A stretch of DNA of 64,000 nt, taken from contig NZ_CP063458.1 in assembly GCF_015169395.1 (NCBI RefSeq), positions 6,820,001-6,884,000 on the forward strand. Reading direction: 5' to 3'. The number at the start of each line of letters is the position of its first letter. Within the stretch, counting starts at the first letter, position 1. Shown in pieces: positions 9,751-24,992 of the stretch. Under the pieces are notes generated by a model that was given only the letters and a program-made list of their open reading frames with translations, was not told where the DNA came from and ran no database searches. Both the position numbers and the translations under genes were made by a program. Origin of the DNA: Humisphaera borealis. Its GTDB lineage: Bacteria; Planctomycetota; Phycisphaerae; Tepidisphaerales; Tepidisphaeraceae.

Positions 9751-10665
9751 TCAGCCATCGATCATCAGGTTCGCCGCAGCCGATCGACACAGTCCGACGA
9801 ACGTCTGTTCGGCCAGCGAAAGCGACTTTCCCGTGGCGACGGCGATCGCCCAGCGTCGCCGGACTTTCTGCCCCGGCAGGGGCAGCCAGATGAGCGACCG
9901 CTGCGACAGTTCCGGCCGCGCGACCCACTTGGCGATCACGCTGATACCCAGCCCCAGTTTCACCAGTTCCTTGATCGCCTCCATCGAGCCGAGCTCGATC
10001 GGATCGCGGAGCGGCGTCTTCATTTTCAGAAAGTATCGTTCGACGGCGCGATAGGTCGCGCTGCCCCGGCTGTAGAGCACCATCCGTTGATCGACCATCG
10101 TCCGTCGATCGACCTTGCCCGCCCTCGCCCACGGATGTAGCGGCGAAACCAGAAACCCCAGCTCGTCTTCGAACAGGTCGTGGTACTGCAGCCTCCCGCC
10201 GCGATCGCGGCTGTCAGGGCGGATCATGATGCCCAGGTCGATCGATCCCTCGGCGACCCGCTCGCCGACGATCGGCGAGTCGCCGGGGGTGATCGCCAGG
10301 GAATACAGGGGAAAGCTTTCGCGGAACTCACGGAGTGACTCGGGGACGAGGTACTGGCACGCCGTCGGGCTGGCGCCGATGCGCAACCTGCCGAGCCCCG
10401 GTTGAGAGGCTTGCTTGACGGCTTCGGCCGCTTCGTCAATCGCCGCGAAGACCTTGCGGGCCCGATCCAGGAGCACACGGCCGGGGCCGGTGAGCTCGAC
10501 CGATCGGCCCCGTCGCTCGAACAACTGCGTATCGAGCTGCCGTTCCAGCGAGGCGACTTGGTGGCTGACGGCGGACTGTGTGAGAAACAGCGTTTCCGCG
10601 GCACGGGTGAAGCTTAGATTCTCAGCAACGGTCGCGAAGATCTTCAAAGAGTGCGCGTCGAGCAT
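9751..10665 (-). CDS. LysR-type regulator of the nitrate locus (probable)
   Basis: 304 residues. The N-terminal winged helix-turn-helix is typical LysR (LKIFATVAENLSFTRAAETL, then FLTQSAVSHQVASLERQLDT), followed by an effector domain of the CysB/CbbR class (GLGRLRIGASPTACQYLVPE; LGIMIRPDS; EAIKELVKLGLGISVIAKWV). It is transcribed away from the nitrate uptake operon across 164 bases, the classic position for a LysR activator of the adjacent operon, so nitrogen control of nrt/nir/nas genes is the best inference. The effector (nitrate, nitrite, 2-oxoglutarate) is unknown. Confidence 0.9.
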   Translation of the reverse strand: MLDAHSLKIFATVAENLSFTRAAETLFLTQSAVSHQVASLERQLDTQLFERRGRSVELTGPGRVLLDRARKVFAAIDEAAEAVKQASQPGLGRLRIGASPTACQYLVPESLREFRESFPLYSLAITPGDSPIVGERVAEGSIDLGIMIRPDSRDRGGRLQYHDLFEDELGFLVSPLHPWARAGKVDRRTMVDQRMVLYSRGSATYRAVERYFLKMKTPLRDPIELGSMEAIKELVKLGLGISVIAKWVARPELSQRSLIWLPLPGQKVRRRWAIAVATGKSLSLAEQTFVGLCRSAAANLMIDG

Positions 10666-10829
10666 GCAGGACTCATGAGCGAAATCGATCGAAAGTATCT
10701 TAACAATGATCTGGCTTCATGCCACGGTTTCCTTGTAGATTCCGCCCCGTCGGGATCGGATGAGGATTGACCAGTGAGCACGGTGTGGCAGCCGGCTCGA
10801 CCCGACGGAGGGCTCCACTACGGTGAACC
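10666..10829. promoter_or_regulatory. shared LysR / nitrate operon control region
   Basis: 164 bases between divergent genes. It contains an 8-bp palindrome TCGATCGA at 10685-10692 and a dyad ATC-N8-GAT at 10697-10710 in the most AT-rich part. Either could be part of the LysR-type binding site; no clear -35/-10 or sigma-54 element was recognised. Confidence 0.4.
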
Positions 10830-12089
10830 GTGGCCAGAGCCGACATCACAAGAATTGATCACGGCACGGCCGCCGCAAGGCCGGTCAACGGTGCCGCCGG
10901 CGGTGTCGTCCGGATCGGGTTCGTCCCGCTCATCGATGCCGCTCCGCTCCTGGCCGCCCGGGAGCTCGGACTATTCGAGAAGTTCGGCGTTCGCGTCATT
11001 CTCGAACGGCAGATCGGATGGGCCAATGTCCGCGACAAGCTTCTCTACGGACATCTGGACGTATCGCACGCCGTCCTGGGAATGCCGCTGAGCACCACGC
11101 TCCCGGGTGGTGCCACCGAACCGCTGCTTTCGGTGATGGAACTGGGCAGCGGCGGGAACGCGATCACCCTGAGCAAGGCACTGGTCGACCGCGGTGTCCG
11201 GTCGGCAGCAACCCTTGCCCGATGGCTTGTCGACCGCAAGGCGGCCGGGCGTGGCGGCGAGCTTCGCAAGCTCGTTTTCGGCTACGTCTTTGGTGCCTCC
11301 ATGCACCACTATCTCCTGAGGGAATGGCTCAGCTCCGCCGACATTCACCCCGATCTCGACGTCCGCCTCTGCGTCGTTCCGCCTCCCCAGATGACGGAAC
11401 ACATGCGGCATGGACACCTTGACGGGTTCTGCGTCGGCGACCCATGGAACACGCTCGCCGAGCGCGGCGGTCACGGCACGATTGTGAGCCCGACCACCGA
11501 CATCCTGCCCAACCATCCGGAAAAGGTACTCGCCGTAACGCGTCGCTGGGCCGACGACCACGGGCCGGCGGTGGTGGCGATCATCAAGGCGTTGCTGCAG
11601 GCCTGTGCCTGGTGCGACGACGAAGCCAACCACCCCAAGCTCGCCGAGATGCTCGCGAGCGAGCGGTGCATCGGTGTTCCGGTCGCGGATCTGGCGGCGA
11701 GCCTGCGAGTCAATCGAACCCTTGGCGTGAATCCACGGCAACCGTCGCCGCGACCCGCCGACTGGCGCATGAGGTCGTTCGCGGTCAAGCGAACGTTCCC
11801 CAGCGCGACGCACGCCGCTTGGCTGGCCGAGCAGATGATCCGCTGGGGTCATGCTCCCAGCGAAGCCGATGTCGTCGTCGCCGCCACCCATTGCACCGAC
11901 AGTCGCTTCTACCGCCAGGCCGCTGCCGAACTGGAGATCGACTGTCCCGCGGACGATCTGGCGCCGATGCCGCTGCGGCACCAGAGCTCCTACGACCCGC
12001 GCAGGTCACCCTATCGCGGATCGAATGAACCCTCGCCCGCAGGCCCCCGGCCGAGCTCATTCGTGCCGGCTTCCGTCCAGAACACCTGA
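10830..12089 (+). CDS. NrtA/NasS-like nitrate-binding protein without signal peptide
   Basis: 419 residues, starting at GTG 10830. The fold is that of the NrtA/CmpA/NasS substrate-binding family: VVRIGFVPLIDAAPLLAARE near residue 30, the HLDGFCVGDPWNTLAERGG block, and LPNHPEKVLAVTRRWADDHG. Unlike the next gene it has neither a signal peptide, a twin-arginine motif nor a lipobox, so it should be cytoplasmic, as is NasS, the nitrate sensor that controls the antiterminator NasT. No NasT-like (ANTAR) gene is visible nearby. It is the first gene of the operon, 49 bases before nrtA. A sensor role is inferred; a degraded transporter subunit is the alternative. Confidence 0.8.
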   Translation: MARADITRIDHGTAAARPVNGAAGGVVRIGFVPLIDAAPLLAARELGLFEKFGVRVILERQIGWANVRDKLLYGHLDVSHAVLGMPLSTTLPGGATEPLLSVMELGSGGNAITLSKALVDRGVRSAATLARWLVDRKAAGRGGELRKLVFGYVFGASMHHYLLREWLSSADIHPDLDVRLCVVPPPQMTEHMRHGHLDGFCVGDPWNTLAERGGHGTIVSPTTDILPNHPEKVLAVTRRWADDHGPAVVAIIKALLQACAWCDDEANHPKLAEMLASERCIGVPVADLAASLRVNRTLGVNPRQPSPRPADWRMRSFAVKRTFPSATHAAWLAEQMIRWGHAPSEADVVVAATHCTDSRFYRQAAAELEIDCPADDLAPMPLRHQSSYDPRRSPYRGSNEPSPAGPRPSSFVPASVQNT

Positions 12090-12138
12090 TGCTCCGTCCG
12101 TTGCACAAACCACTACTTCGATCACAGGACACATTGAA

Positions 12139-13443
12139 ATGAAGATGAACTCGAATACCAGCTCGAACCCTTCGCGACGCGGACTTCTCAAGTCCGCCGC
12201 ATACGGGATGGCCGCCCTCGGGGCCGGCATTCCGCTCGCCAGCGCCATTAGTGGGTGCAGGAAGAAAACTGCGGCAACCCCCAGCGCCGGAGGCACCGGC
12301 CCGGAAGTCACCGACCTTAAGTTTGGAATGATCGCGCTGACGGATTGCTCGCCCCTGGTGATTGCCGAGAAAAAGGGCTTCTTCAAGAAGTACGGGATCA
12401 ACGGTGTCGTCGAAAAGAAGGGCAACTGGGCGGCGATCCGCGATTCGCTCACCAGCGGCGAGATTCAGGGCACGCACATGCTCATCGGTATGCCGCTGAG
12501 CCTGACGATGGGCATCGGCGGTGCCAAGCCCGTTCCGATGGTGATCCCCTGGCTGCTCAACCGCAATGGGCAGAGCATCTCGCTTACCAAGGCGCTCAAG
12601 GGCAAGGTGAAAGCCGACCCCGCGCCCCTCAAGCCGATCGTTGATGCTGCCAAGGCGAGCGGAAAACCCATGAACTTCGCGATGACGTTTCCCACCGGAA
12701 CGCACGCGATGTGGATTCGCTACTGGCTCGCCGCCGGTGGCATTCATCCCGACAACGACATCGGTCTGAAGGTTGTCCCGCCGCCCAACATGTTCAATGG
12801 CATGCAGTCGGGCGAGATCGACGGGTTCTGCGTCGGCGAGCCCTGGAACGCCAAGACGGCCGCAGAAGGGGTTGGCTACACCGCGATCAACACGCAGGAC
12901 ATCTGGAAGGATCATCCCGAGAAGGTGCTGGCGTTCACTAAAAGCTTCGCCGACGCCAATCCCCGCACCGTCAAAGCCGTCCTGAAGGCCGTTCACGAAG
13001 CCAGTGTGTGGCTCGACGACGTCAAGAACCGTCCCGAGCTGTGCGAGATCATTTCCGCGACCGGCTATGTGAACTGCCCGAAGGAGCTGATCCTCGGTCG
13101 ACTTCAGGGGCAGGTCGATTACGGCGACGACCGCGGCAAGGTCACCGACCCCAACTACATGATCTTCAGCAGCCGCAACTGCAACTACCCGCAGCTCAAG
13201 TACGCCGCCTGGTTCATCAGCCAGTTCCGTCGCTGGGGCATGGTGGAGGGGACGCCCGATTACGCCGGCATCTCCAGGCAGGTGATGCGGCCTGACCTTT
13301 ACGAAGAAGCGATGAAGGAGATCGGCTACACCGCGGGCGTGGCCGACGAGAAGCCCGAAACGTTGTTCGACAACATCACGTTCGACCCGTCCAAGCCAGA
13401 GGAATACGCCCGTTCGTTCAAGGTGCACGCAATGAAGGGGTGA
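12139..13443 (+). CDS. nrtA: nitrate ABC transporter substrate-binding lipoprotein
   Basis: 434 residues from ATG 12139 (AGGA upstream). The N-terminus has a twin-arginine motif (PSRRGLLKSAAYGM) and ends in a lipobox-like SAISGC, suggesting a Tat-exported lipoprotein. The mature part is NrtA/CmpA family: [40 protein letters not shown], and [19 protein letters not shown]. It should capture nitrate (possibly nitrite) in the periplasm and hand it to NrtBCD. The reading frame is open upstream to 11851, but that part overlaps the preceding gene. Near-identical blocks recur in the preceding protein and in the C-terminal half of NrtC. Confidence 0.9.
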   Translation: MKMNSNTSSNPSRRGLLKSAAYGMAALGAGIPLASAISGCRKKTAATPSAGGTGPEVTDLKFGMIALTDCSPLVIAEKKGFFKKYGINGVVEKKGNWAAIRDSLTSGEIQGTHMLIGMPLSLTMGIGGAKPVPMVIPWLLNRNGQSISLTKALKGKVKADPAPLKPIVDAAKASGKPMNFAMTFPTGTHAMWIRYWLAAGGIHPDNDIGLKVVPPPNMFNGMQSGEIDGFCVGEPWNAKTAAEGVGYTAINTQDIWKDHPEKVLAFTKSFADANPRTVKAVLKAVHEASVWLDDVKNRPELCEIISATGYVNCPKELILGRLQGQVDYGDDRGKVTDPNYMIFSSRNCNYPQLKYAAWFISQFRRWGMVEGTPDYAGISRQVMRPDLYEEAMKEIGYTAGVADEKPETLFDNITFDPSKPEEYARSFKVHAMKG

Positions 13444-13511
13444 GTGGAACCCGATGCGTTGCGCTCGGGAGCGGCGCTCCACGCCGTCTCGTATCTCGAT
13501 ACAGGAGCCCG

Positions 13512-14441
13512 ATGTCCATGACCAAGAAGATATTGACTGACTTTCTCCTTTTCCCGGCGGTCGGCATTGCCGTGCTGATGGGACTATGGCTTACGGCGTC
13601 GGTGATCACACACGACGCCGAATCCGGCATATCGACCTTACCGGGTCCCCTGCAGACCTGGGAGGAGAGCAAGCTGTATGTGCTGGAGCCGCTCGCGTAT
13701 CGCAACGAGACCGACCAGGGCATCATCCTGATGACCTGGGGTTCGCTGCTCCGCGTGCTCGCCGGATTCGGTATCGCAGTAGCGCTCGGCGTACCACTCG
13801 GGATGGCCCTGGGTTCGTCGAAGGTCTTCAACAAGATGATCGACCCGGCGATCCAGATCCTGCGGCCGGTCAGCCCGCTCGCCTGGTACCCTATCGGTTT
13901 TGCGATCTTCCTGTCCTACAAGAAGGACTGGGAGATCAATGTCGGCGAACTGGCGGCGATCTTCACCGTTGCCGTCTGTGCGATGTGGCCGACCGTTCTG
14001 AACACCGCCAAGGGTGTGCGGTCCATCCCCCAGGACTATCACAACGTCGCGAAGGTGCTCGGCCTGGGCCGGGTGCAGAAGACGTTCAAGATCCTTCTGC
14101 CGGCGGCATTCCCCGACATGTTCACGGGCTTCCGCCTGAGCCTGGGCATGGCATGGCTGGTCATTGTCGCGGCCGAGATGTTGACGGCCAAGAACGGTAT
14201 CGGCGGGTTTCTGAACCAGGAGTTCAACGCGGGCAAGACCGAACACATCCTGCTCTGCGTCATCACGATCGGCCTGGTGGGGTTCGTTTTGGACAGGCTC
14301 ATGAGCGTTCTGGAAGCCAACACCGACAAGCTGCTGAACCTGCCGTTCGCACTGGCCAGCCGGTTGCGAAGCCGGCCGACGGTGGCCGCGGTGAAGCCAC
14401 TTGCCGCCAAGGGAAGGGGTGCCGCTCATGCCGCTTCTTGA
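13512..14441 (+). CDS. nrtB: nitrate ABC transporter permease
   Basis: 309 residues from ATG 13512 (a second ATG at 13518 is better spaced from AGGAG at 13503). It is a BPD-type inner-membrane permease with six or so hydrophobic helices and the coupling loop [20 protein letters not shown], the EAA-like motif that contacts the ATPase. Typical NrtB/CmpB features include [20 protein letters not shown] and [13 protein letters not shown]. The gene overlaps nrtC by 14 bases, indicating translational coupling. It forms the membrane channel of the nitrate importer. Confidence 0.9.
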
Positions 14442-16404
14442 ACTCAACAACGTCAGCAAGAGTTATGGCGACAAGGGGGCGGAAGTCCTGTCGGGGATCA
14501 ACCTGACGGTGGAAGAGGGGGAGTTTGTTGCGATCATCGGCTACTCGGGCGCGGGCAAGACCACGCTCATCTCAATGCTCGCTGGACTGGTTACGCCCGA
14601 CACCGGTGAAGTAACCATGCAGGGCAAGCCGATCACCGGACCCGGCCCGGACCGCGCGATGGTCTTTCAGAACTACTCGCTGCTGCCGTGGCTGACGGTC
14701 GCGCAGAACGTCGCGCTGGCGGTCGATCGGGTGTTCGGCACGGAGTCTGCCGCGAACCGCCGGGACCGCGTCGACAAGGCCCTTGCGATGGTGAACCTGA
14801 CGGCCGCGGCGGAGAAGAAGCCGAGCGAGCTGTCGGGCGGCATGCGGCAGCGGGTGAGCGTCGCACGGGCGCTGTCGATGGACCCCCGTGTGCTGCTGCT
14901 CGACGAGCCGCTGGGCGCACTCGACGCACTGACGCGGGCGACCATACAGGACGAGATCACCAGCATCTGGCAGCGCGACCGAAAGACCGTGCTGCTGATC
15001 ACCAACGACGTCGATGAAGCGATCCTGCTCGCCGACCGGATCATTCCGCTGAGTGCCGGACCGGCGGCCACCCTCGGGCCGGCTGTGAAGGTCGACATCC
15101 CCCGGCCTCGCGATCGCAAGGCGATGAACCACGACCCGCGGTTCAAGGAGATCCGCCAGCAGGTCATCGAATGGCTCCTCGGCGAAGGCAGTGCGACGGG
15201 CCGGCCGGCCCGTCGCCTGGCGAGCGTTCGAGGCAGGACCGAGCGTCCGACGATCACCGTCGGCTTCCTTCCGCTGACCGACTGCGCGCCGCTGGCGGTC
15301 GCGGTCGAGCGTGAGGTGTTTCACAAGCACGGGATCGATGTCAAGCTCCAGAAGTTCCCGAGCTGGGATGCGATCACCGAAGCCGCGTGCAGCGGGAGGA
15401 TCGACGCCGCCCACATGCTGGCGAGCATTCCGGTCGCGATCGCCGCGGGGCTGATGGGGCGAAAGCGGCATCCGCTGGTGGTGCCCTGGATCATGAACCG
15501 CAACGGGCAGGGCATCACGTTGTCGTCGGCCCTACAGTCGTCGGTCGGCACCGATATGGGGAAGCTCAAAGCTACGGCGGCCGCGGCGCGACAAAAGGGA
15601 GACCCGCTGTCGTTCGCGGCGACACACCGCTTTGGCACACATGAGATGTGGCTGCGGTACTGGCTGGCGGCGGGGGGAATTCACCCCGACCGCGATATCA
15701 ACCTCACCGTCACACCGCCGCCCCTGATGCTCGCCAGCCTTCGGCAGGGGGAGATGAGCGGCTTCTGCGTCGGCGAGCCCTGGAACGCCAAGGCGATCAG
15801 CGAAGGGCTGGGTTACACCGCCGCCGCGTCGCAGGACGTCTGGGCCGACCATCCGGAAAAGGTGCTGGCGTTCGGAGAGAACTTCGTCAACGAGCAGCCC
15901 GATACCCTCAAACGGTGCCTGGCGGCGATGAATGAAGCCAGCGCGTGGATCGACGATCCGCAGAACAAACCCGAGACGGCTCACATCGTCGGCAAGCGGG
16001 AGTACTGCAACGTCCGCGAGGAACAGATTCTGCCTCGACTTCGCGGGCAGTACGACTTCGGCGACGGCAGGACGAAGAACTACGCCGTCCATCCGATCCG
16101 CTTCTCGACGGCCCGCGTGAACTACCCGCAGACGAAGTACGCGATCTGGTTCCTCACGCAGTTCCGCCGCTGGGGCCAGCTCGCCGAGACCCCCGACTAC
16201 ACGACGATCGCCGAGCGTGTTTACCGCGGTGACCTGTACGAACTGATCGGACGGCCGACCGAGTTTGACCCGATTCAGGCTAACACGACGGTCGAGACGC
16301 TGTGCGACAGCAAGGTGTTTGACCCCGCGTTCCCCGAGGACTACGCGACCGGATTCGAGATCAGCAGCGTAGCGTCCGCCCTGGCGGACGCGGTCCCGGC
16401 GTAA
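14428..16404 (+). CDS. nrtC: nitrate ABC transporter ATPase fused to NrtA-like domain
   Basis: 658 residues. Residues 1-255 are an ABC ATPase: Walker [10 protein letters not shown], signature LSGGMRQR, Walker [13 protein letters not shown]. Residues about 270-655 repeat the NrtA fold ([31 protein letters not shown]-like block, [17 protein letters not shown]). This two-part architecture is diagnostic for NrtC/CmpC, where the fused domain acts as a cytoplasmic nitrate/ammonium-responsive regulator of transport. The start at 14428 overlaps the end of nrtB. It is followed by a palindromic repeat before nrtD. Confidence 0.92.
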
Positions 16405-16420
16405 AGCAGAGTTGCAGAAT

Positions 16421-16556
16421 TTCAACCACGGAGAACACCGAGAGCACGGAGGAGAACGACCATCCGGAGCGACAAGAAACATGAAGCCGAGAGATCGTTT
16501 GAGTCTGTTTCTCTGTGCTTTTGTGCTCCGTGAACTCCGTGTGCTCCGTGGTGGTG
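16421..16556. repeat. dispersed palindromic repeat (CACGGAG type), copy 2
   Basis: The left arm at 16424-16455 (AACCACGGAGAACACCGAGA and onward) pairs with the right arm at 16522-16555 (ending CTCCGTGTGCTCCGTGGTGG). Arms of about 30 bases enclose roughly 65 bases. It shares its core with the element at 2101-2252. It occupies nearly all of the gap between nrtC and nrtD, so the operon transcript would carry a strong hairpin here that could terminate, attenuate or protect RNA. Confidence 0.8.
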
Positions 16557-16580
16557 ATTCTTTCCACGACTTAAGTAGCC

Positions 16581-17396
16581 ATGAACAAGTACCTCGAAAT
16601 CTGGCAGCTCAACAAAACCTTCCCTTCCAAGAAGGGCCCTTACACCGTGGTGGAAGGCTTCGATTTGTCCCTGCGGCAGGGGGAGTTCGTTTCGCTGATC
16701 GGCCACTCCGGCTGCGGCAAATCGACCGTCCTCTCGATCGTCGCCGGTTTAAGCGAGATGACCAGCGGCACGCTCATCCTTGCCGGCAAGGAGCTCCGCG
16801 GCGCGGGGCCCGATCGTGGCGTTGTCTTCCAGGCGCCGAGTCTGCTCCCGTGGATGACCGCGTTCGACAATGTCCTGCTCGGCGTCAACCAGGTGATGTC
16901 TGATGCCTCCGAGCAGGAGCGGAAGGACCTGGTCGCTTACTACCTGACGCTGATCGGCCTGAAGGACGCGATGCACAAGCTGCCGGCCGAGCTTTCGCAG
17001 GGCATGCGGCAGCGGGTTGGCATTGCCCGCGCATTCGCGCTGAACCCCAAGATGCTGCTCCTGGACGAGCCGTTCGGCATGCTCGATTCACTGACCCGAT
17101 ATGAACTCCAGCAGGTGCTCATCGACCTATGGAGCCAGGACCAGAAGACGGCCCTGATGGTCACGCACGACGTGGACGAAGCGCTGTTTCTGTCCGACCG
17201 CATCGTCATGATGACCAACGGCCCAAGGGCTCGTGTCGGCGAGACCCTTGAAGTGACCTTTCCGCGGCCGCGCAACCGCACCGAGGTCATGGAACACCCC
17301 GACTACTACCGGCTTCGGGAACGGCTGATCTCGTTCCTGGAAGAACATGACATCCGCAAACCTACGCAGCCGGACGCGGCTGCGGCGGTCGCGTAG
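16581..17396 (+). CDS. nrtD: nitrate ABC transporter ATPase
   Basis: 271 residues, a stand-alone ABC ATPase: Walker [11 protein letters not shown]-loop [17 protein letters not shown], signature LSQGMRQR, Walker [13 protein letters not shown], and the switch histidine in [20 protein letters not shown]. The Q-loop and LSQGMRQR variant are characteristic of the NrtD/TauB/SsuB group. Together with NrtC it should form the heterodimeric ATPase of the importer. It is separated from nrtC only by the palindromic repeat. No fused binding domain is present. Confidence 0.92.
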
Positions 17397-17528: not shown

Positions 17529-18995
17529 ATGAAGCGTTTACTGATCGCCATCTCGGCGGCTCTTGCTCCGGCTACTTTCGCGATGGCACAGACCACCGCG
17601 CCAGCCTCTGCCCCGGCGACCAAAGTCGCCGTGGCAACGCCGCCGCCTTACACCCCCGTCCGCTGGACGGAAAACTACGCCTACCTGAAGGATCCGACCC
17701 TTCGGACCGACCTGTTCGACCCAATCAAGTACATCCCGCTGGGCGCGGACGGCTTCTATTTATCGCTCGGCGGCCAGCTTCGCGAGCGATATGAGAACTT
17801 CGACGACGCCAACTTCGGCGCAGTTCCCGCCGACGACGACGGCTACTTCCTGCACCGCGGATTGTTCCACGCCGACTTCCAGCTCGGACCGGTTTTCAGG
17901 GTGTTCGGGCAATACAAGTTCGCCCTGGAAGACGGCGAAAACGGCGGGCCACGCGCCGCGGATGCCGACGAATCCGACATCCAGCAGCTCTTCGCCGACG
18001 CCAGGCTGCCGCTGGGCGGCAAGGACTCGGTCACGCTCCGCTTCGGCCGCCAGGATTTAGCCTACGGCGCTCAGCGATTGATCTCCCCGCTCGATTGGAC
18101 CAACACCCGCCGCACCTTCGAAGGCTTCAAGGCCTCGACTGTGACCGGTAACAACACGCTCGACGCGTTCTGGGTTCGCCCGGTGATCGTTGACAAGGAA
18201 GAGCCCAACGACGGCGACGACGACACGAGCTTTGCCGGCGTCTACAACACGCTGGCGCTGCCCACCGTCTTTGAAGGCGGCGGCACCAAGCTCGAGGTCT
18301 ACGGACTGGCGCTGAACAAGACCAAGACTTCCGCATCAGGCGTGCAGGGTGCCGTCGCGGTTGATTCCGACACGTACACCGTCGGTGCCCGGTTCTCATC
18401 GGCCCCCAAGCCGTTCGATTTTGACGTCGAAGGCGCTTACCAGTTCGGCCAGTTCGACACCAGCACGATCTCGGCCTGGTCTTTCGCGATGGAAGCCGGT
18501 TACACCTGCTTCCCGGCGCCCCTGAAGCCCCGTGCCTTCATCGGATTCGATATTGCCAGCGGCGACGACAATCCGACCGACGGCAACTTCAATCGGTTCA
18601 ACCAGCTGTTTCCGCTAGGCCATCTCTACTTCGGCTACATCGATGCGATCGGCCGGCAGAACATCATCGATGTGCATCCCGGCTTCGACCTGACGCTGGC
18701 CGAGAAAGCCAGTTGGGCCCAGAAGCTTACGCTTAGGACAGAGTACCACCTGTTCTGGCGCGAGAGCACGGCCGACGGCGTCTTCAATGCCGGCGGCGGC
18801 CTGCTGCGGGCGTCGGGCGGGAGCGACGAAAGCTACATCGGTTCGGAAATCGACCTGCTGCTCACCTGGCAGATCGACCGCCATACGCAGGCATACTTCG
18901 GTTGGAGCCATTTCTTCGCCGGTGACTTCATTCAGGATACCGGGCCCAGCGAAGACATCGACTTCCTCTATGGAGCGTTGCAGTTCACGTTCTAA
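17529..18995 (+). CDS. outer-membrane porin, alginate-export-like
   Basis: 488 residues with a signal peptide (MKRLLIAISAALAPATFAMA-Q). The body alternates short aromatic/polar strands and turns as in beta barrels, ends in FLYGALQFTF with a C-terminal Phe as in outer-membrane proteins, and resembles the Alginate_exp family (FYLSLGGQLRERYENFDDAN; ADARLPLGGKDSVTLRFGRQ, then DLAYGAQRLISP). It lies between nrtD and nirA in the same direction, with AAAAGGAAT before its ATG. The context suggests a channel for nitrate or nitrite across the outer membrane, which is inference; the family is better known for organic anions and polysaccharide. Confidence 0.8.
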   Translation: MKRLLIAISAALAPATFAMAQTTAPASAPATKVAVATPPPYTPVRWTENYAYLKDPTLRTDLFDPIKYIPLGADGFYLSLGGQLRERYENFDDANFGAVPADDDGYFLHRGLFHADFQLGPVFRVFGQYKFALEDGENGGPRAADADESDIQQLFADARLPLGGKDSVTLRFGRQDLAYGAQRLISPLDWTNTRRTFEGFKASTVTGNNTLDAFWVRPVIVDKEEPNDGDDDTSFAGVYNTLALPTVFEGGGTKLEVYGLALNKTKTSASGVQGAVAVDSDTYTVGARFSSAPKPFDFDVEGAYQFGQFDTSTISAWSFAMEAGYTCFPAPLKPRAFIGFDIASGDDNPTDGNFNRFNQLFPLGHLYFGYIDAIGRQNIIDVHPGFDLTLAEKASWAQKLTLRTEYHLFWRESTADGVFNAGGGLLRASGGSDESYIGSEIDLLLTWQIDRHTQAYFGWSHFFAGDFIQDTGPSEDIDFLYGALQFTF

Positions 18996-19114: not shown

Positions 19115-20980
19115 ATGTCCGACTTCAGTGACGAACAGAAACACTACCTGCAAGGCTTTGTCGCCGGCTCGGGGCTCACCCAGCTCCTGGTCAATGGCCG
19201 CGCGTCGTTCGCCACCGCACTCGGGCTGCCGGCCAATGGCTCGATCAGTCTTCCCGGAGGCGGATCGGAGATCCCGCCGGGGCCAGAAGCGGTTCACTAC
19301 CGGGCACAGGACGCGCAGGTCGCCGCCGGCAAAAAGCTTTGCCCGGAAGAGGTCGCCAAGCGCAAGAAGTTCCCGCTTGATCAGTGGAATGATCTCGTCC
19401 AGCACTCGGCCGAGGGAAAGTTCCCCAAGGGCACGGACGTGCTGGCCTTTAAGTACCAGGGGTTGTTCTATGTCGCGCCGGCGCAGGACAGCTACATGGC
19501 CCGGCTGCGGTTTGCCGGAGGTATCGTGCCGAGCTTCCAGTTCCGACGGGTGGCGGAGCTTGCCGAGGTTCACGGTGGCGGATTCTCCGACGTCACCACC
19601 CGCGCCAACCTGCAGATCCGCGAGATCCAGGCCGGTAGCGCCATCGACTTCCTCGAAGGCCTGCACGATGCCGGCATCCTCTGCCGTGGCTCGGGGGCCG
19701 ACAACATCCGCAACGTCACCGGTAGCCCGACGGCCGGAATCGATCCGCAGGAACTGATCGACACCCGCCCGCTGTCGCGGGCCATGCACCACTACATCCT
19801 CAACCACCGTGAGATGTACGGCCTGCCGCGGAAGTTCAACATCGCATTCGACGGCGGCGGCAAAATCTCCGCCGTCGAAGACACCAACGACATCGGCTTT
19901 TCCGCGGTCCGCGTGGGCCAAGGCAAAACCGACAGCGACGGCCAGCTGATCGAGCCTGGTGTTTACTTCCGGCTGGCGCTCGGCGGCATCACCGGGCACA
20001 AGGATTTCGCGAAAGACCAAGGCGTCCTGCTGAAGCCGGACGAGTGCATCTCCGTCGCCGCAGCGATCGTGCGCGTCTTCATCGACAACGGCGACCGCAC
20101 CGACCGCAAGAAGGCCCGGCTGAAGTACGTGCTCGACCGCTGGGGGCACGCGAAGTACATCGAAGAAACCGAGAAGGTCCTCGGCCGCAAGCTGCGCAAA
20201 GTAGCGACGGCGATGTGCGAGCCGCGCCCCGCGGTCGACAAGCACGGCCACATCGGTGTCTTCCCGCAGAAGCAGGAAGGCAGGTTTTATGTAGGCGTCG
20301 TCCTACCGGTGGGCCGAATCACCGCCGAGCAGATGCGCGGCATCGCCGACATCGCCGACAAGTTCGGGTCAGGCATGATCCGCCTGACGGTCTGGCAGAA
20401 CCTGCTGATCTCCGACATTGCCGAGGCCGACATTCCCGCCGTGCAGGAGGCACTGGCAAAACTGAACCTGGCCACCAGCGCCACCAGCATCCGCGCCGGT
20501 CTTGTTGCCTGCACGGGTGCGGCCGGCTGCAAGTTCGCGATGGCCCACACCAAGCAGCACGCGATGGCGCTCGCCGAAGCGCTGGAGAAGCGGATCGAAC
20601 TGGATGTGCCGGTCAACATCCATCTGACGGGCTGCCCGAACTCGTGCGCCCAGCACTACATGGGCGACATTGGCCTGATCGGGACGAAGGTGTCGCTCGG
20701 CGACGACGATGACGCCGAAGAGGTCGAGGGCTATCACGTGTTTGTCGGCGGCGGCTACGGCGCTGACCAGTCCATCGGTCGAGAGCTGTACCGCAACATC
20801 CCGGCCACGGAACTGGCCAAGACCGTCGAGAAGATGATCCGTGGCTACAAGGCCAATCGCACGACACCGACGGAGTCGTTCAATGAGTTCGTGCGTCGAC
20901 ATGAAACAGATCAGTTGAAGGAGATCTTCGACGCCCACGCAGTGACCGAATCGGAAGCGGTCGAATTGACCACGGGATAG
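19115..20980 (+). CDS. nirA: ferredoxin-type assimilatory nitrite reductase
   Basis: 621 residues from ATG 19115 (GAGG five bases upstream; the frame runs on upstream without a good site). Two nitrite/sulfite reductase ferredoxin-like repeats are seen (VPSFQFRRVAELAEVHGGG, then TTRANLQIREI). The siroheme/[4Fe-4S] cysteines are C-T-G-A-A-G-C and, 37 residues later, TGCPNSCAQHYMGDIG (C-x5-C and C-x3-C). It reduces nitrite to ammonium with six electrons in the cytoplasm. An N-terminal extension of about 90 residues precedes the catalytic repeats. Sulfite reduction cannot be excluded from motifs, but the nrt and nas neighbours favour nitrite. Confidence 0.9.
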   Translation: MSDFSDEQKHYLQGFVAGSGLTQLLVNGRASFATALGLPANGSISLPGGGSEIPPGPEAVHYRAQDAQVAAGKKLCPEEVAKRKKFPLDQWNDLVQHSAEGKFPKGTDVLAFKYQGLFYVAPAQDSYMARLRFAGGIVPSFQFRRVAELAEVHGGGFSDVTTRANLQIREIQAGSAIDFLEGLHDAGILCRGSGADNIRNVTGSPTAGIDPQELIDTRPLSRAMHHYILNHREMYGLPRKFNIAFDGGGKISAVEDTNDIGFSAVRVGQGKTDSDGQLIEPGVYFRLALGGITGHKDFAKDQGVLLKPDECISVAAAIVRVFIDNGDRTDRKKARLKYVLDRWGHAKYIEETEKVLGRKLRKVATAMCEPRPAVDKHGHIGVFPQKQEGRFYVGVVLPVGRITAEQMRGIADIADKFGSGMIRLTVWQNLLISDIAEADIPAVQEALAKLNLATSATSIRAGLVACTGAAGCKFAMAHTKQHAMALAEALEKRIELDVPVNIHLTGCPNSCAQHYMGDIGLIGTKVSLGDDDDAEEVEGYHVFVGGGYGADQSIGRELYRNIPATELAKTVEKMIRGYKANRTTPTESFNEFVRRHETDQLKEIFDAHAVTESEAVELTTG

Positions 20981-20999
20981 GCGGCAAAGCCGAGCGTTG

Positions 21000-21087
21000 G
21001 GTGGCGTGGGCAAGCGTACCCGCTTGCCCGTGGCGATCACCAACCAGCGGTCGACACGGGCAACGGAGTACCGTTGCCCATGCCACC
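21000..21087. repeat. double-hairpin REP-like repeat (GGGCAAGCG type)
   Basis: Two perfect hairpins: GGGCAAGCG/CGCTTGCCC at 21008-21029 (loop TACC) and GGGCAACGG/CCGTTGCCC at 21058-21079 (loop AGTA). The outer ends, 21000-21013 and 21074-21087, are also complementary (13 of 14), so the whole 88 bases can fold as one long stem or as two hairpins. It fills most of the gap between nirA and the reductase gene. This is a bacterial REP/BIME-like layout. Confidence 0.8.
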
Positions 21088-21123
21088 AAAAGCTCAAGCA
21101 CAGTCCATTAACACGTGACGACC

Positions 21124-22749
21124 ATGAACATCCCAGCAATTCCAACGAATGCTCCATTCACCGATGCTCAGCGCTCCTGGCTGAACGGCTTCTTTGCCGG
21201 GCTGTTTGGACAGGTCAACGGCAACGCAAACGGCTTGGCGGTTTCGATGCCTGCTGAAGTCGCAGGTGCGTCCGCCGCGGCACCGGCAGCGCCGGTTGCC
21301 GACGAGAACGAAGAGATGCCCTGGCACGATCCGGCGCTCACGATCGACGAGCGCATGCAGATGGTTGTCGGCAAACCACTGTCACGCCGGCTCATGGGCG
21401 CGATGGCCCAACTCGACTGCGGCGCCTGCGGCTATGTCTGCAAGACGTACTCCGAGGCGATCGCCAACGGCCAGGAAAAGGACCTGACCAAGTGCGCGCC
21501 CGGCGGTATGGAGACCAGCAAGAAGCTGAAGGTACTCGTCGCCGAAGGCGGCGGTGCCGCGGTGAAGGCAGCGGCGGCGCCGGCCTCGGGAGCGGCCAAG
21601 CCCGCCACGCTCAATCCCGCCGCCGGCAAGTACGGCCGACACAACCCCTTCCCGGCCCGCCTGCTCGAATGCAATGCGCTGAACAAGCCCGGCAGCATGA
21701 AGGACACCCGCTTCGTCTCGCTCGACCTCAAAGGCAGCGGACTTTCCTACAAGGTCGGCGACGCCTTGGGAGTCTTCCCGGAGAACGATCCTGACCTGGT
21801 CGGCTGGGTGCTCGAAGCTCTTGATGCCAGCGGCGCCGAAGAAGTGATCGATCCCGACGGCAACCGCGTGAGCATTTATGAAGCGCTGCTCAAGAGCTAC
21901 TCGCTGGGTAAACCGACCGACCTGATGTTCGAACTGCTCATCAACACCGCCGCCGATGCCGAGCAGGCCAGCCAGCTCAAGCAGATGCTGGCCGATGACA
22001 GCCTGCCCGAAGGCGACGACGTCCTCGATCTTCTGCGGCAGTTCCCCTCTGCCAAGCCTGAGCCCTACGAGTTCGTGACGGCGTTGAACCCGCTTCAGCC
22101 GCGGCTCTACTCCATCTCATCGTCGCTGAAAGCCCACCCTGACCAAGTCCACCTGACGGTCGGCATCGTGCGGTTCGTCAACAAGCGCGAGCGCCAGTGC
22201 AAGGGCGTGTGCTCCACCTTCTTTGCCGACCGCGTCAAGCCCGGACTGAAGGTCCGCTGCTTCGTTCACGAGTCGCACGGCTTCGGTGTGCCGGCGAACC
22301 CGGACGTGCCGATCATTATGGTCGGCCCCGGAACCGGCATCGCGCCGTTCCGCGCTTTTCTCGCCGAGCGCAGGGCGACCGGTGCCAAAGGGAAGAACTG
22401 GCTGCTGTTCGGCGATCAGCAGAAGCAGTACGACTACCTCTACGAGCAGGAGCTGGAGCAGTTGCGCGAGGAAGGCTTCCTCACCCGTCTCGACCTCGCC
22501 TTCAGCCGCGACCAGAAGGAAAAGATCTACGTCCAGAACCGCATGCTCGAACACGCCGCCGAAATGTGGAAATGGCTTCAGGAAGGTGCCCACTTCTACG
22601 TCTGCGGCGATGCCAAGCGCATGGCGACCGACGTCGACAACGCACTCAAGAGGATCGCCATGGAACAGGGCAATATGTCCGCCGAGCAGGCCAAGGCATT
22701 CGTCATGGATCTATCGAAGAACAAGCGGTACCAGAGAGACGTGTATTGA
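21124..22749 (+). CDS. Fe-S/FNR reductase, CysJ-like but lacking flavodoxin domain
   Basis: About 541 residues (a GTG at 21115 would add three; neither start has a clear ribosome site). After a variable N-terminus there is an Fe-S domain with Cys in DCGACGYVCKTYSEAIANG, then LTKCAPGG (C-x2-C-x3-C and a later C), like the small Fe-S domain of acetyl-CoA synthase proteins. The rest matches the FAD/NADPH half of sulfite reductase flavoprotein: RLYSISSS (FAD), GVCSTFFADR, MVGPGTGIAPFRAFLAERRA (NADPH), FYVCGDAKRMA and C-terminal RDVY. The usual FMN flavodoxin domain is absent. It lies between nirA and nasA and is probably the electron donor for one or both. Confidence 0.85.
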   Translation: MNIPAIPTNAPFTDAQRSWLNGFFAGLFGQVNGNANGLAVSMPAEVAGASAAAPAAPVADENEEMPWHDPALTIDERMQMVVGKPLSRRLMGAMAQLDCGACGYVCKTYSEAIANGQEKDLTKCAPGGMETSKKLKVLVAEGGGAAVKAAAAPASGAAKPATLNPAAGKYGRHNPFPARLLECNALNKPGSMKDTRFVSLDLKGSGLSYKVGDALGVFPENDPDLVGWVLEALDASGAEEVIDPDGNRVSIYEALLKSYSLGKPTDLMFELLINTAADAEQASQLKQMLADDSLPEGDDVLDLLRQFPSAKPEPYEFVTALNPLQPRLYSISSSLKAHPDQVHLTVGIVRFVNKRERQCKGVCSTFFADRVKPGLKVRCFVHESHGFGVPANPDVPIIMVGPGTGIAPFRAFLAERRATGAKGKNWLLFGDQQKQYDYLYEQELEQLREEGFLTRLDLAFSRDQKEKIYVQNRMLEHAAEMWKWLQEGAHFYVCGDAKRMATDVDNALKRIAMEQGNMSAEQAKAFVMDLSKNKRYQRDVY

Positions 22750-22856: not shown

Positions 22857-24992
22857 ATGGCCAAAGAGATTCCTACCCTCTGTCCCTACTGCGGCGTCGG
22901 CTGCGGGCTGCTCGCGTCGACGGACGGGGAGCGGATTCTCCGCATCCGCGGCGATCCGAAGCACCCGGCGAACCTCGGCCGCGTCTGCCCCAAGGGCGGC
23001 ACTGTCGCCGCCACCGTGAACGTGGCGACGCGGCTCCGCCACGCCATGCTGCGCGACGGGTTCGGCAAAGCGCCGTCGGTCGTGCCGCCCGGTGCCGCCA
23101 TCCGCGTTGCGGCCGAGGGGATCGACCGCATCCTGCAGTCCCACGGACCGGGCGCGATCGCGTTTTACCTTTCCGGCCAGCTCACCACCGAAGCCCAGTA
23201 CATCGCGACCAAGTTCGCCAAGGCGTACCTGCGGACGAACCACTGCGACAGCAACAGCCGGCTGTGCATGGCGTCGGCAGGGGCGGGGATGAAGCTGTCG
23301 CTCGGCTCGGACGGCCCGCCCACGGTTTACGCCGATATCGAGCTCGCCGATGCGTTCTTTTTCATCGGTTCCAACGCCGCCGAGTGCCACCCGGTCACGT
23401 TCGAGCGAATCAGGAAGCGGATCGACAAGGGGGCCAGGTGCGTGGTCGCCGATCCCCGCCGAACGCCCACCGCCGAATCGGCGACGGTGCACCTGCCGAT
23501 CCGCCCGGGCACCGATCTGACATTGCTCAACGGCCTGATGCGCATCATTCGCGATCGCGGGTTGCTCGATGCGCGATACATCGAGCAGCACACCGAGGGG
23601 TGGGAACAACTGGATGCCATCCTCGATGATTACCCGCTGAACGTCGTCGCGCAACGGTGCGGGCTTGAGGAAGCCGACATCCTCTCGGCCGCCGAGATCA
23701 TCGCCTATACGCCAAAGCTCATCACGTTCTGGACGATGGGCATCAACCAGAGCCTGCAGGGAACGTTCGCGAGCAACGCGATCATCAACCTTCACCTGGC
23801 GACGGGCCGGATCGGCAAGCCCGGCGCCGGGCCTTTCAGCCTGACGGGCCAGCCCAACGCGATGGGCGGCCGCGACGTCGGGTACATGAGCCACATGCTC
23901 CCCGGGCAACGGTCCGTTGCCAGCGAGAAGGACCGCGCCGACATGGAAGCGGTCTGGGGATTGAAACCCGGCACGATTGTTTCCGAAGTCGGCCACGACG
24001 CCGTTCGCATGTTCGACGCGATCGATCGCGGCGAAATCAAGGCGCTCTGGGTCATCGGCTCAAACCCCGCCGCCAGCATGCCCAACCTGCCGCGCATTCG
24101 CAGCGCGCTCGAGAAGTGCGAACTGGTCATCGTGCAGGATGCCTACTACCCGACCGAGACAACCAAGTACGCGCACGTGCTGCTCCCGGCGGCGGTCAAC
24201 CTGGAGCAGGAGGGAACCTACTGCAACAGCGAGCGACGGGTCACGCTGATGGAGCAGGTCGTCCCGCCGCCGGGCGATGCCAAACCCGACTGGTGGTGGG
24301 TGCGCGAAATCGCCGTCGCGCTGGGTTTCCGAAAGGGCATGCAGTTCGAATCGTCCGAGCAGATCTTCGACGAGTTCGCCCGATCCACCGCCGGCCGGCC
24401 GAACGATCAGAGCGGCATGCACTACAAGATGCTCCGCGAGTTGGGGCCGCAGCTTTGGCCGCACCCGTCCATGGCCAGGGCGAACGATCGCCGGTATGTC
24501 GACGGCATCTACCCGACCGCTACCGGCAAGGCACGCCTCTGGGCGCGCCACGACATTTCGCCGGACGAGAAGCCGAATGCGGATTTTCCGATGTTGCTGA
24601 CGACGGGCCGCGTTCTCAACCAGTGGCATACCCGAACCAAGACGGGTCAGGTGGAGCAGCTCAACGCGCTGGACCCGGCGCCCTACCTTCAGATCCACCC
24701 GCAGGATGCCGACGAACTCGGGCTCTCGACCGGCGACGAAGTGACCATCAGCAGCCGCCGCGGCACCGCCAGGGCGCCGGTCCTGACGGACGACACCATC
24801 TCTCCCGGCGTCGTCTTCATGCCGATCCATTGGAACGAGCTTTGGGCACAGGCGGCGTCGCCGAACGAGGCCACGTCGGACCAGACCGACCCTGTCAGCT
24901 TTCAGCCCGCGCTCAAATGCTGCGCTGTGAAGGTGGCAAAGGTCGCCTGCCGCGCAACGGCAGGGTCACGGCAGGCCGCGGTAACCGCGTGA
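22857..24992 (+). CDS. nasA: assimilatory nitrate reductase, molybdopterin catalytic subunit
   Basis: 711 residues. The N-terminal [4Fe-4S] motif CPYCGVGCGLL and RVCPKGG is followed by the molybdopterin oxidoreductase core (HCDSNSRLCMASAGAGMKLS, in which the Cys is the likely Mo ligand as in NasA/NapA; FIGSNAAECHPVTFERI; WTMGINQSLQGTFASNAIIN) and the C-terminal dinucleotide-binding domain (LLTTGRVLNQWHTRTKTGQV). There is no twin-arginine signal, so it acts in the cytoplasm, reducing nitrate to nitrite. It is short for the family and lacks the C-terminal [2Fe-2S] domain of Klebsiella-type NasA, consistent with a separate electron donor. It is the last gene of the operon. Confidence 0.9.
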   Translation: MAKEIPTLCPYCGVGCGLLASTDGERILRIRGDPKHPANLGRVCPKGGTVAATVNVATRLRHAMLRDGFGKAPSVVPPGAAIRVAAEGIDRILQSHGPGAIAFYLSGQLTTEAQYIATKFAKAYLRTNHCDSNSRLCMASAGAGMKLSLGSDGPPTVYADIELADAFFFIGSNAAECHPVTFERIRKRIDKGARCVVADPRRTPTAESATVHLPIRPGTDLTLLNGLMRIIRDRGLLDARYIEQHTEGWEQLDAILDDYPLNVVAQRCGLEEADILSAAEIIAYTPKLITFWTMGINQSLQGTFASNAIINLHLATGRIGKPGAGPFSLTGQPNAMGGRDVGYMSHMLPGQRSVASEKDRADMEAVWGLKPGTIVSEVGHDAVRMFDAIDRGEIKALWVIGSNPAASMPNLPRIRSALEKCELVIVQDAYYPTETTKYAHVLLPAAVNLEQEGTYCNSERRVTLMEQVVPPPGDAKPDWWWVREIAVALGFRKGMQFESSEQIFDEFARSTAGRPNDQSGMHYKMLRELGPQLWPHPSMARANDRRYVDGIYPTATGKARLWARHDISPDEKPNADFPMLLTTGRVLNQWHTRTKTGQVEQLNALDPAPYLQIHPQDADELGLSTGDEVTISSRRGTARAPVLTDDTISPGVVFMPIHWNELWAQAASPNEATSDQTDPVSFQPALKCCAVKVAKVACRATAGSRQAAVTA

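Follow-up and report, generated by a model that had tools for sequence, protein, structure and literature searches.

What does a CysJ-like reductase do when it carries an Fe-S domain at the place of the FMN-binding flavodoxin domain and is encoded between a nitrite and a nitrate reductase? This question is raised by a gene in a 64,000-nucleotide stretch of the Humisphaera borealis genome (contig NZ_CP063458.1, positions 6,820,001 to 6,884,000), referred to below as the window, with coordinates counted from its first letter. A cluster on its plus strand comprises nitrate ABC transporter genes, a porin-like gene, nirA, the reductase gene and nasA. As judged from sequences, structure models and gene neighbourhoods, we consider it likely (a probability of roughly 80%) that the reductase serves as a dedicated donor, passing electrons from NADPH to the adjacent NirA.

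The nitrate assimilation cluster

The transporter genes (11851..17396, +) encode NrtA, NrtB, NrtC (with a substrate-binding domain) and NrtD. The siroheme nitrite reductase NirA is encoded at 19115..20980 (+; 621 amino acids from the ATG at 19115, in a frame that is open from 18998) and the assimilatory nitrate reductase NasA at 22857..24992 (+). An earlier note on this DNA described NirA as being of the ferredoxin type, which the curated models do not bear out: it passes NF007126 (‘NirA family protein’; 908 bits against a cut-off of 523) and falls short of NF007125 (‘ferredoxin--nitrite reductase’; 381 bits against 594), so that membership of the latter family is rejected.

Several other elements accompany these genes. 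The cluster opens (9751-12089) with a divergently oriented gene for a LysR regulator and a gene for an apparently cytoplasmic (NasS-like), NrtA-like protein of 419 amino acids. A single ANTAR (NasT-like) protein was found in the genome, encoded far from the cluster (G000:C1:4337081). The porin-like protein between the transporter and nirA genes (17529-18995) belongs to the alginate-export porin family PF13372 and may form a nitrate channel in the outer membrane. The intergenic stretch from nirA to the reductase gene (20992-21095) contains nested inverted repeats with 45-nucleotide arms that are 80% complementary, plus two smaller hairpins, a pattern that does not recur elsewhere in the window. 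An Rfam scan of the window returned one tRNA and nothing else.

Domain architecture of the reductase

The reductase gene (21115..22749, +) encodes 544 amino acids from a GTG start; the in-frame ATG three codons on, at 21124, is an alternative and corresponds to the start given in the earlier note. According to that note, the FAD/NADPH half of CysJ is kept and the FMN domain is swapped for a four-cysteine Fe-S domain, for which a search for PF04060 together with FAD_binding_1 and NAD_binding_1 was proposed. All three are found: PF04060 (FeS) at residues 99-129 (24.0 bits; gathering cut-off 23), PF00667 (FAD_binding_1) at residues 175-369 and PF00175 (NAD_binding_1) at residues 402-508, the last two spanning 21637..22638 (+). 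A match to any flavodoxin family, PF00258 included, is absent up to E = 1 in the Pfam scan, and the same kind of scan detects PF00258 in the FMN-headed relative L149. The AlphaFold model (mean pLDDT 86.5) orders the protein as an N-terminal helix (residues 17-32; 21163..21210, +), a low-confidence linker, the Fe-S domain (residues ~64-148; 21304..21558, +), a second low-confidence linker (residues 149-170; 21559..21624, +) and the FAD/NADPH half. The cysteines of the head, C102, C105, C109 and C127, are encoded by the plus-strand codons starting at 21418, 21427, 21439 and 21493.

The top PDB sequence match, to the E. coli sulfite reductase flavoprotein (SiRFP), covers residues 161-544 (E 4.5e-88). 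Fold comparison of the C-terminal half with the same protein gives Z 47 over 374 residues at 43% identity. As the fold search is filled by matches to the FAD/NADPH half, it hardly probed the Fe-S head; used alone as a sequence query, the head retrieved only a weak match to RnfB (E 0.025).

Family membership and origin of the Fe-S head

Conservation was assessed in an alignment of 52 proteins, which includes the window’s and leaves out L073 (with a break in its match towards the end) and L076. The neighbour count likewise rests on 52 loci, here with L073 and without L076 and the window; these are the six non-window Fe-S matches of a planctomycete sample and the 46 Fe-S-headed proteins among the best 80 of 585 relatives. 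The four cysteines are invariant in 52/52 aligned proteins from Planctomycetota and Proteobacteria, with the spacing CX2CX3CX17C in every one of them, and probably hold a [4Fe-4S] cluster. PF04060 is detected in 51 of these proteins, and FAD_binding_1 and NAD_binding_1 in all 52. A chance domain match is rejected, as both the cysteines and PF04060 are conserved across phyla.

When a tree is built from the FAD/NADPH half, the 53 Fe-S-headed rows all fall into one supported group (99/93). Its sole intruder is L076, of which the 5' end is cut by its contig and due to which the tree tool counts two label changes for the Fe-S form. FMN-headed forms are located outside this group, on several branches. 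Many origins of the Fe-S form are thereby rejected, and flavodoxin seems to have been exchanged for the Fe-S domain once: the tree, with a root placed by midpoint only, fits a single event.

The reductase is a full-length member of NCBIfam NF004859 (PRK06214), ‘sulfite reductase subunit alpha’ (710 bits, cut-off 432, residues 5-544 of 544). Proteins with an FMN head or with none (L149, L066, L085) also score above the cut-off of this model, so its name hides the head swap. The CysJ models TIGR01931 and NF008197 remain below their curated cut-offs (431 vs 668 and 366 vs 838 bits), and the ferredoxin-NADP reductase models NF045929 and NF058510 score 117 and 119 bits against cut-offs of 600 and 635. 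Among the features by which a CysJ is recognised, the FAD_binding_1 and NAD_binding_1 half is present, while the flavodoxin domain PF00258 is lacking and CysI or sulfate-assimilation neighbours occur at none of the 52 loci. A public Methylocystis record gives the gene order ‘NirA family protein - sulfite reductase subunit alpha - nitrate reductase’. The Fe-S-headed reductase is a structural and probably functional variant of CysJ, from a family that NCBIfam already lists, though probably under the wrong label.

Two further architectures were encountered among the relatives. Headless proteins of ~380-410 amino acids that consist of the FAD/NADPH half only (L022-L024, L026, L027, L083-L085, L090, L095, L097, L100-L102, L105, L109) occur in Verrucomicrobiota and one planctomycete family, and no NirA was found beside them. 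A 1086-amino-acid planctomycete protein (L029:8881-12138, genome G003) has a cytochrome P450-like start and a CysJ-like half at its end and, to judge by its sequence, is an apparent P450-reductase fusion.

Pairing of the reductase with NirA

A NirA of 45% identity or more is encoded directly upstream of the Fe-S reductase in 48/52 loci, 47 of which were called by script; in the remaining one (L034), NirA extends a few bases past the reductase start. Two of the four loci without NirA are contig ends (the contigs of L030 and L061 begin 194 and 354 bp before the gene, and that of L061 retains a NirA fragment), leaving L058 and L060 as true exceptions. In L058 (6478-9593; Reyranella), the Fe-S-headed reductase adjoins a Pyr_redox_2 oxidoreductase, with no NirA in 17.6 kb. 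L060 (7232-9575) is a second copy in Planctomycetes bacterium K23_9, located directly after a single-domain globin gene; nearby genes encode a multihaem cytochrome c and a NirB-like FAD protein that has a BFD domain. This copy may be a globin reductase involved in NO detoxification.

Two observations had been named in the earlier note as speaking against its reading, namely a location mainly beside cysteine/sulfate genes and Fe-S cysteines that are not conserved in homologues. Both were looked for and neither refutes the reading: the cysteines are invariant, and CysH/D/N/C/I genes are present in 0/52 loci, by which a sulfur-assimilation context is rejected.

The same note proposed a survey of co-occurrence in planctomycetes, which for nirA turned out in its favour. 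Searching 294 Planctomycetota genomes both ways, for the reductase and for NirA, yielded NirA matches in 65 genomes, eight of which score 544 bits or more and 56 of which score 277 bits or less. A ninth planctomycete NirA of the window type (G133; 50% identity) is a contig-end fragment. The seven genomes with an Fe-S reductase are all among the eight with a full-length window-type NirA and encode the two proteins adjacently. The eighth (G242) has an FMN-headed CysJ beside NirA in the slot of the Fe-S reductase. The Fe-S motif is absent from the other seven reductase matches in this sample, which are CysJ-like proteins that are either headless or longer.

A second sample of 199 genomes, from the order of Bradyrhizobium sp. 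BTAi1, includes 39 with a window-type NirA (36 at 58% identity or more and three at 43-44%). All 35 genomes with an Fe-S reductase also have NirA, and in 33 of them the reductase gene is on the same strand 26-375 bp downstream of NirA; the other two pairs are split across contig ends. The three distant NirA proteins (43-44%) are each immediately followed by a full-length FMN-headed CysJ. In one genome (G488), neither form of the reductase is found with NirA. This protein (L153:5250-7852) is 50% identical to the window’s NirA, is encoded beside a formate/nitrite-transporter-like gene and lacks the N-terminal helix motif described below.

Taken over both samples, 46 of the 48 genomes with a window-type NirA have a CysJ-like reductase (42 Fe-S-headed and four FMN-headed), in 44 cases adjacent and in two cases deduced across contig ends. 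The two genomes without are G133, in which NirA is cut at the contig end, and G488, in which NirA has lost the helix. The hypergeometric values of the co-occurrence are 3e-38 and 2e-13, phylogeny being ignored as in all neighbour statistics presented here. Over 32 loci, reductase and NirA also diverge together (r = 0.89; partial 0.78 given NasA).

A helix common to NirA and the reductase

The structure model of the window-type NirA starts with a free helix (residues 6-26; 19130..19192, +), followed by a poorly ordered linker up to residue ~55. Its conserved residues F4, Q8, L12, G14 and G18 have the same spacing as F15, Q19, L23, G25 and G29 of the reductase. A profile built from reductase N-termini only matches 45/45 assessable N-termini of Fe-S-linked NirA proteins at 4.8-22.6 bits, and gives 2.2 bits or less, or no match, for 22 other siroheme reductases. 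Five Fe-S-linked NirA proteins (L042, L052, L055, L064 and L067) were kept out of this count due to contig ends or runs of N. The strict helix motif is present in 44/45 assessable Fe-S-linked NirA proteins, in 0/174 other proteins of the loci and in 7/8800 shuffles, and the profile does not match the NirA of G488. The helix is degenerate in the NirA proteins encoded beside an FMN-headed CysJ (L025 and L154-L156 at 1.2, -1.5, 3.4 and 2.8 bits), so it is not strictly required with the FMN form.

NirA and the reductase probably assemble via their matching helices. However, the profile also finds a weak version of the helix in E. coli CysJ (residues 29-45; 8.0 bits) and none in E. coli CysI. E. 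coli SiRFP forms octamers through its N-terminus. The reductase helix may therefore serve self-assembly of the reductase, and the likeness to NirA could be convergent. More tentatively, at slightly less than even odds, NirA and the Fe-S reductase would form a stable NADPH-nitrite holoenzyme through these helices, a second kind of NADPH-siroheme reductase, with a [4Fe-4S] head in place of the swinging FMN domain. The reductase would then be the actual electron source of NirA in Bradyrhizobium, Methylobacterium and many planctomycetes, in which ferredoxin dependence has been ascribed to NirA.

Proposed route of the electrons

NADPH would reduce the FAD of the CysJ-like half, from which electrons would be handed singly to one [4Fe-4S] cluster in the N-terminal head. 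Swinging on its flexible linkers, the head would pass them on to NirA, at whose [4Fe-4S]-siroheme centre nitrite would be reduced to ammonium. The pair would thus act like E. coli CysJ-CysI, a ferredoxin-like cluster domain having taken over from the FMN domain. Both this path and nitrite as the substrate of NirA are read from genomes and models. The earlier note suggested that NADPH electrons may pass directly to both NirA and NasA, making ferredoxin superfluous. As far as genomes can tell, its proposal appears right for nitrite, where the pairing with NirA is near-obligate, adjacent, co-diverging and free of sulfur genes, and where a removed need for ferredoxin is plausible; the part on NasA was not supported.

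Other possible acceptors

That the reductase feeds NasA in addition to NirA was proposed for planctomycetes because their NasA has neither a BFD domain nor a Flp/NasB-type reductase beside it. The earlier note was correct in that the C-terminal [2Fe-2S] part is missing: a BFD-like domain is absent from the window’s NasA and from all 14 NasA proteins of the planctomycete-type set to which it belongs, and present in 21/21 proteobacterial NasA proteins. NirB-like (Flp/NasB-like) reductases occur in 21 of all 52 loci, often alongside proteobacterial NasA. The planctomycete NasA is thereby left with no obvious donor. A donor common to both enzymes would also fit the presence of NasA in 35/52 Fe-S loci and the existence elsewhere of NasA fusions with a CysJ module. 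Yet NasA is missing from 17/52 loci, 11 of which have ~8 kb on both sides, and over the 32 loci the co-divergence of reductase and NasA is nil beyond the share of NirA (partial 0.18). Moreover, the planctomycetes G056 and G171 encode, beside another NirA, a NasA that is 45% identical to the window’s and likewise lacks BFD, and they have no Fe-S reductase at all; the best model for the G056 NirA is NF007125 (517 bits, below the cut-off of 594). In these two genomes NirA is changed, the reductase is gone and NasA stays. The evidence for nitrate reductase as a client is mixed and leaves this role unproven, and we regard a donor serving both enzymes as unlikely.

Alternatively, the protein may be a general ferredoxin-like NADPH reductase with several acceptors, such as globins in NO detoxification, leaving NirA to be reduced by free ferredoxin. 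The second K23_9 copy directly after a globin gene would suit such a role. P. aeruginosa NirA (PA4130) is reduced in vitro by spinach ferredoxin and hardly by NADPH with free flavin (PMC8092218). Ferredoxin can thus serve at least one bacterial NirA, PA4130 being an enzyme that may not belong to the NirA clade of the window. The near-obligate pairing with one type of NirA, the exchange of Fe-S and FMN heads in the same gene slot and the N-terminal helix common to both proteins make such a general role improbable. Finally, according to its annotation, the reductase would have as its partner a CysI-type or another siroheme sulfite reductase encoded elsewhere in the genome, either exclusively or besides NirA. 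This role is suggested by the NCBIfam name, the CysJ-like half and the presence in the window genome of a second siroheme reductase but of no further CysJ-like protein (the one other PF00175 protein is Fer2-FNR-like, with 405 residues). It is the least probable of all, since the loci lack CysH/D/N/C/I genes, the other siroheme reductase is ~70 kb away and without the helix, and the Fe-S form occurs in 0/56 planctomycete genomes with only other siroheme reductases.

Implications for nitrite reduction in rhizobia

A dedicated donor for NirA would bear on the nitrate assimilation of B. japonicum. In the NasC-Flp/NirA study, NirA is needed for growth on both nitrate and nitrite, Flp is needed for nitrate only, and NirA is described as ferredoxin-dependent (PMC4724949). 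As growth on nitrite through NirA is independent of Flp, NirA needs another donor. Expression data for B. diazoefficiens show a rise of bll4570, a ‘probable sulfite reductase (NADPH) flavoprotein’ and neighbour of nirA (bll4571), along with nirA itself in nif-mutant nodules (log2 4.8 and 5.0 for nifH, 1.6 and 2.2 for nifA; PMC4926349). The Fe-S reductase is found in 49/60 sampled Bradyrhizobium genomes. By position, annotation and this frequency, bll4570 would be the Fe-S form. In the open-access PubMed Central literature, we recognised no paper describing an Fe-S-headed CysJ as donor of NirA.

If the reductase is indeed the donor of NirA, many soil and plant-associated bacteria, Bradyrhizobium among them, reduce nitrite with NADPH via a dedicated two-protein enzyme, and flavodoxin and Fe-S heads are interchangeable in the CysJ frame. 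The donor of NirA in rhizobia also becomes testable by a single gene deletion. Proteins of this architecture are currently filed under a name from sulfur metabolism, and this sulfite reductase label probably hides a missing piece of bacterial nitrate assimilation.

Comparison with known systems

The closest known system is E. coli CysJ/SiRFP (PDB 6efv, 1ddg, 9c91), with which the reductase has in common the FAD/NADPH half (43% identity, Z ~47 over ~370 residues), a weak N-terminal helix in the E. coli protein, a head on flexible linkers and a partner enzyme with siroheme and a [4Fe-4S] cluster. It differs in its Fe-S head instead of an FMN flavodoxin, in having NirA rather than CysI as its partner and in remaining below the CysJ model cut-offs. 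The name of NF004859 implies a sulfite reductase, whereas the gene neighbours point to nitrite. With the Fe-S domain of RnfB/RsxB (PF04060; Rnf subunit B, PDB 8ahx_B), the head shares the four-cysteine motif with C..CG(Y/F) and CxPGG, but the alignment places one residue fewer between its second and third cysteine, and it is fused to a CysJ half. The solved ferredoxin-type nitrite reductases of plants (2akj, 3b0g) and M. tuberculosis (NirA, 1zj8) have the same siroheme/[4Fe-4S] core as NirA; they align only from profile position 57-71 and thus lack its N-terminal helix and linker. The bifunctional nitrate reductase/sulfite reductase flavoproteins (NasA-CysJ fusions) likewise tie a CysJ module to nitrogen assimilation. 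In these proteins, however, the module is fused to NasA and paired with NirBD, and is described as including a flavodoxin (PMC4013037), while in the window it is a separate protein with an Fe-S head beside NirA.
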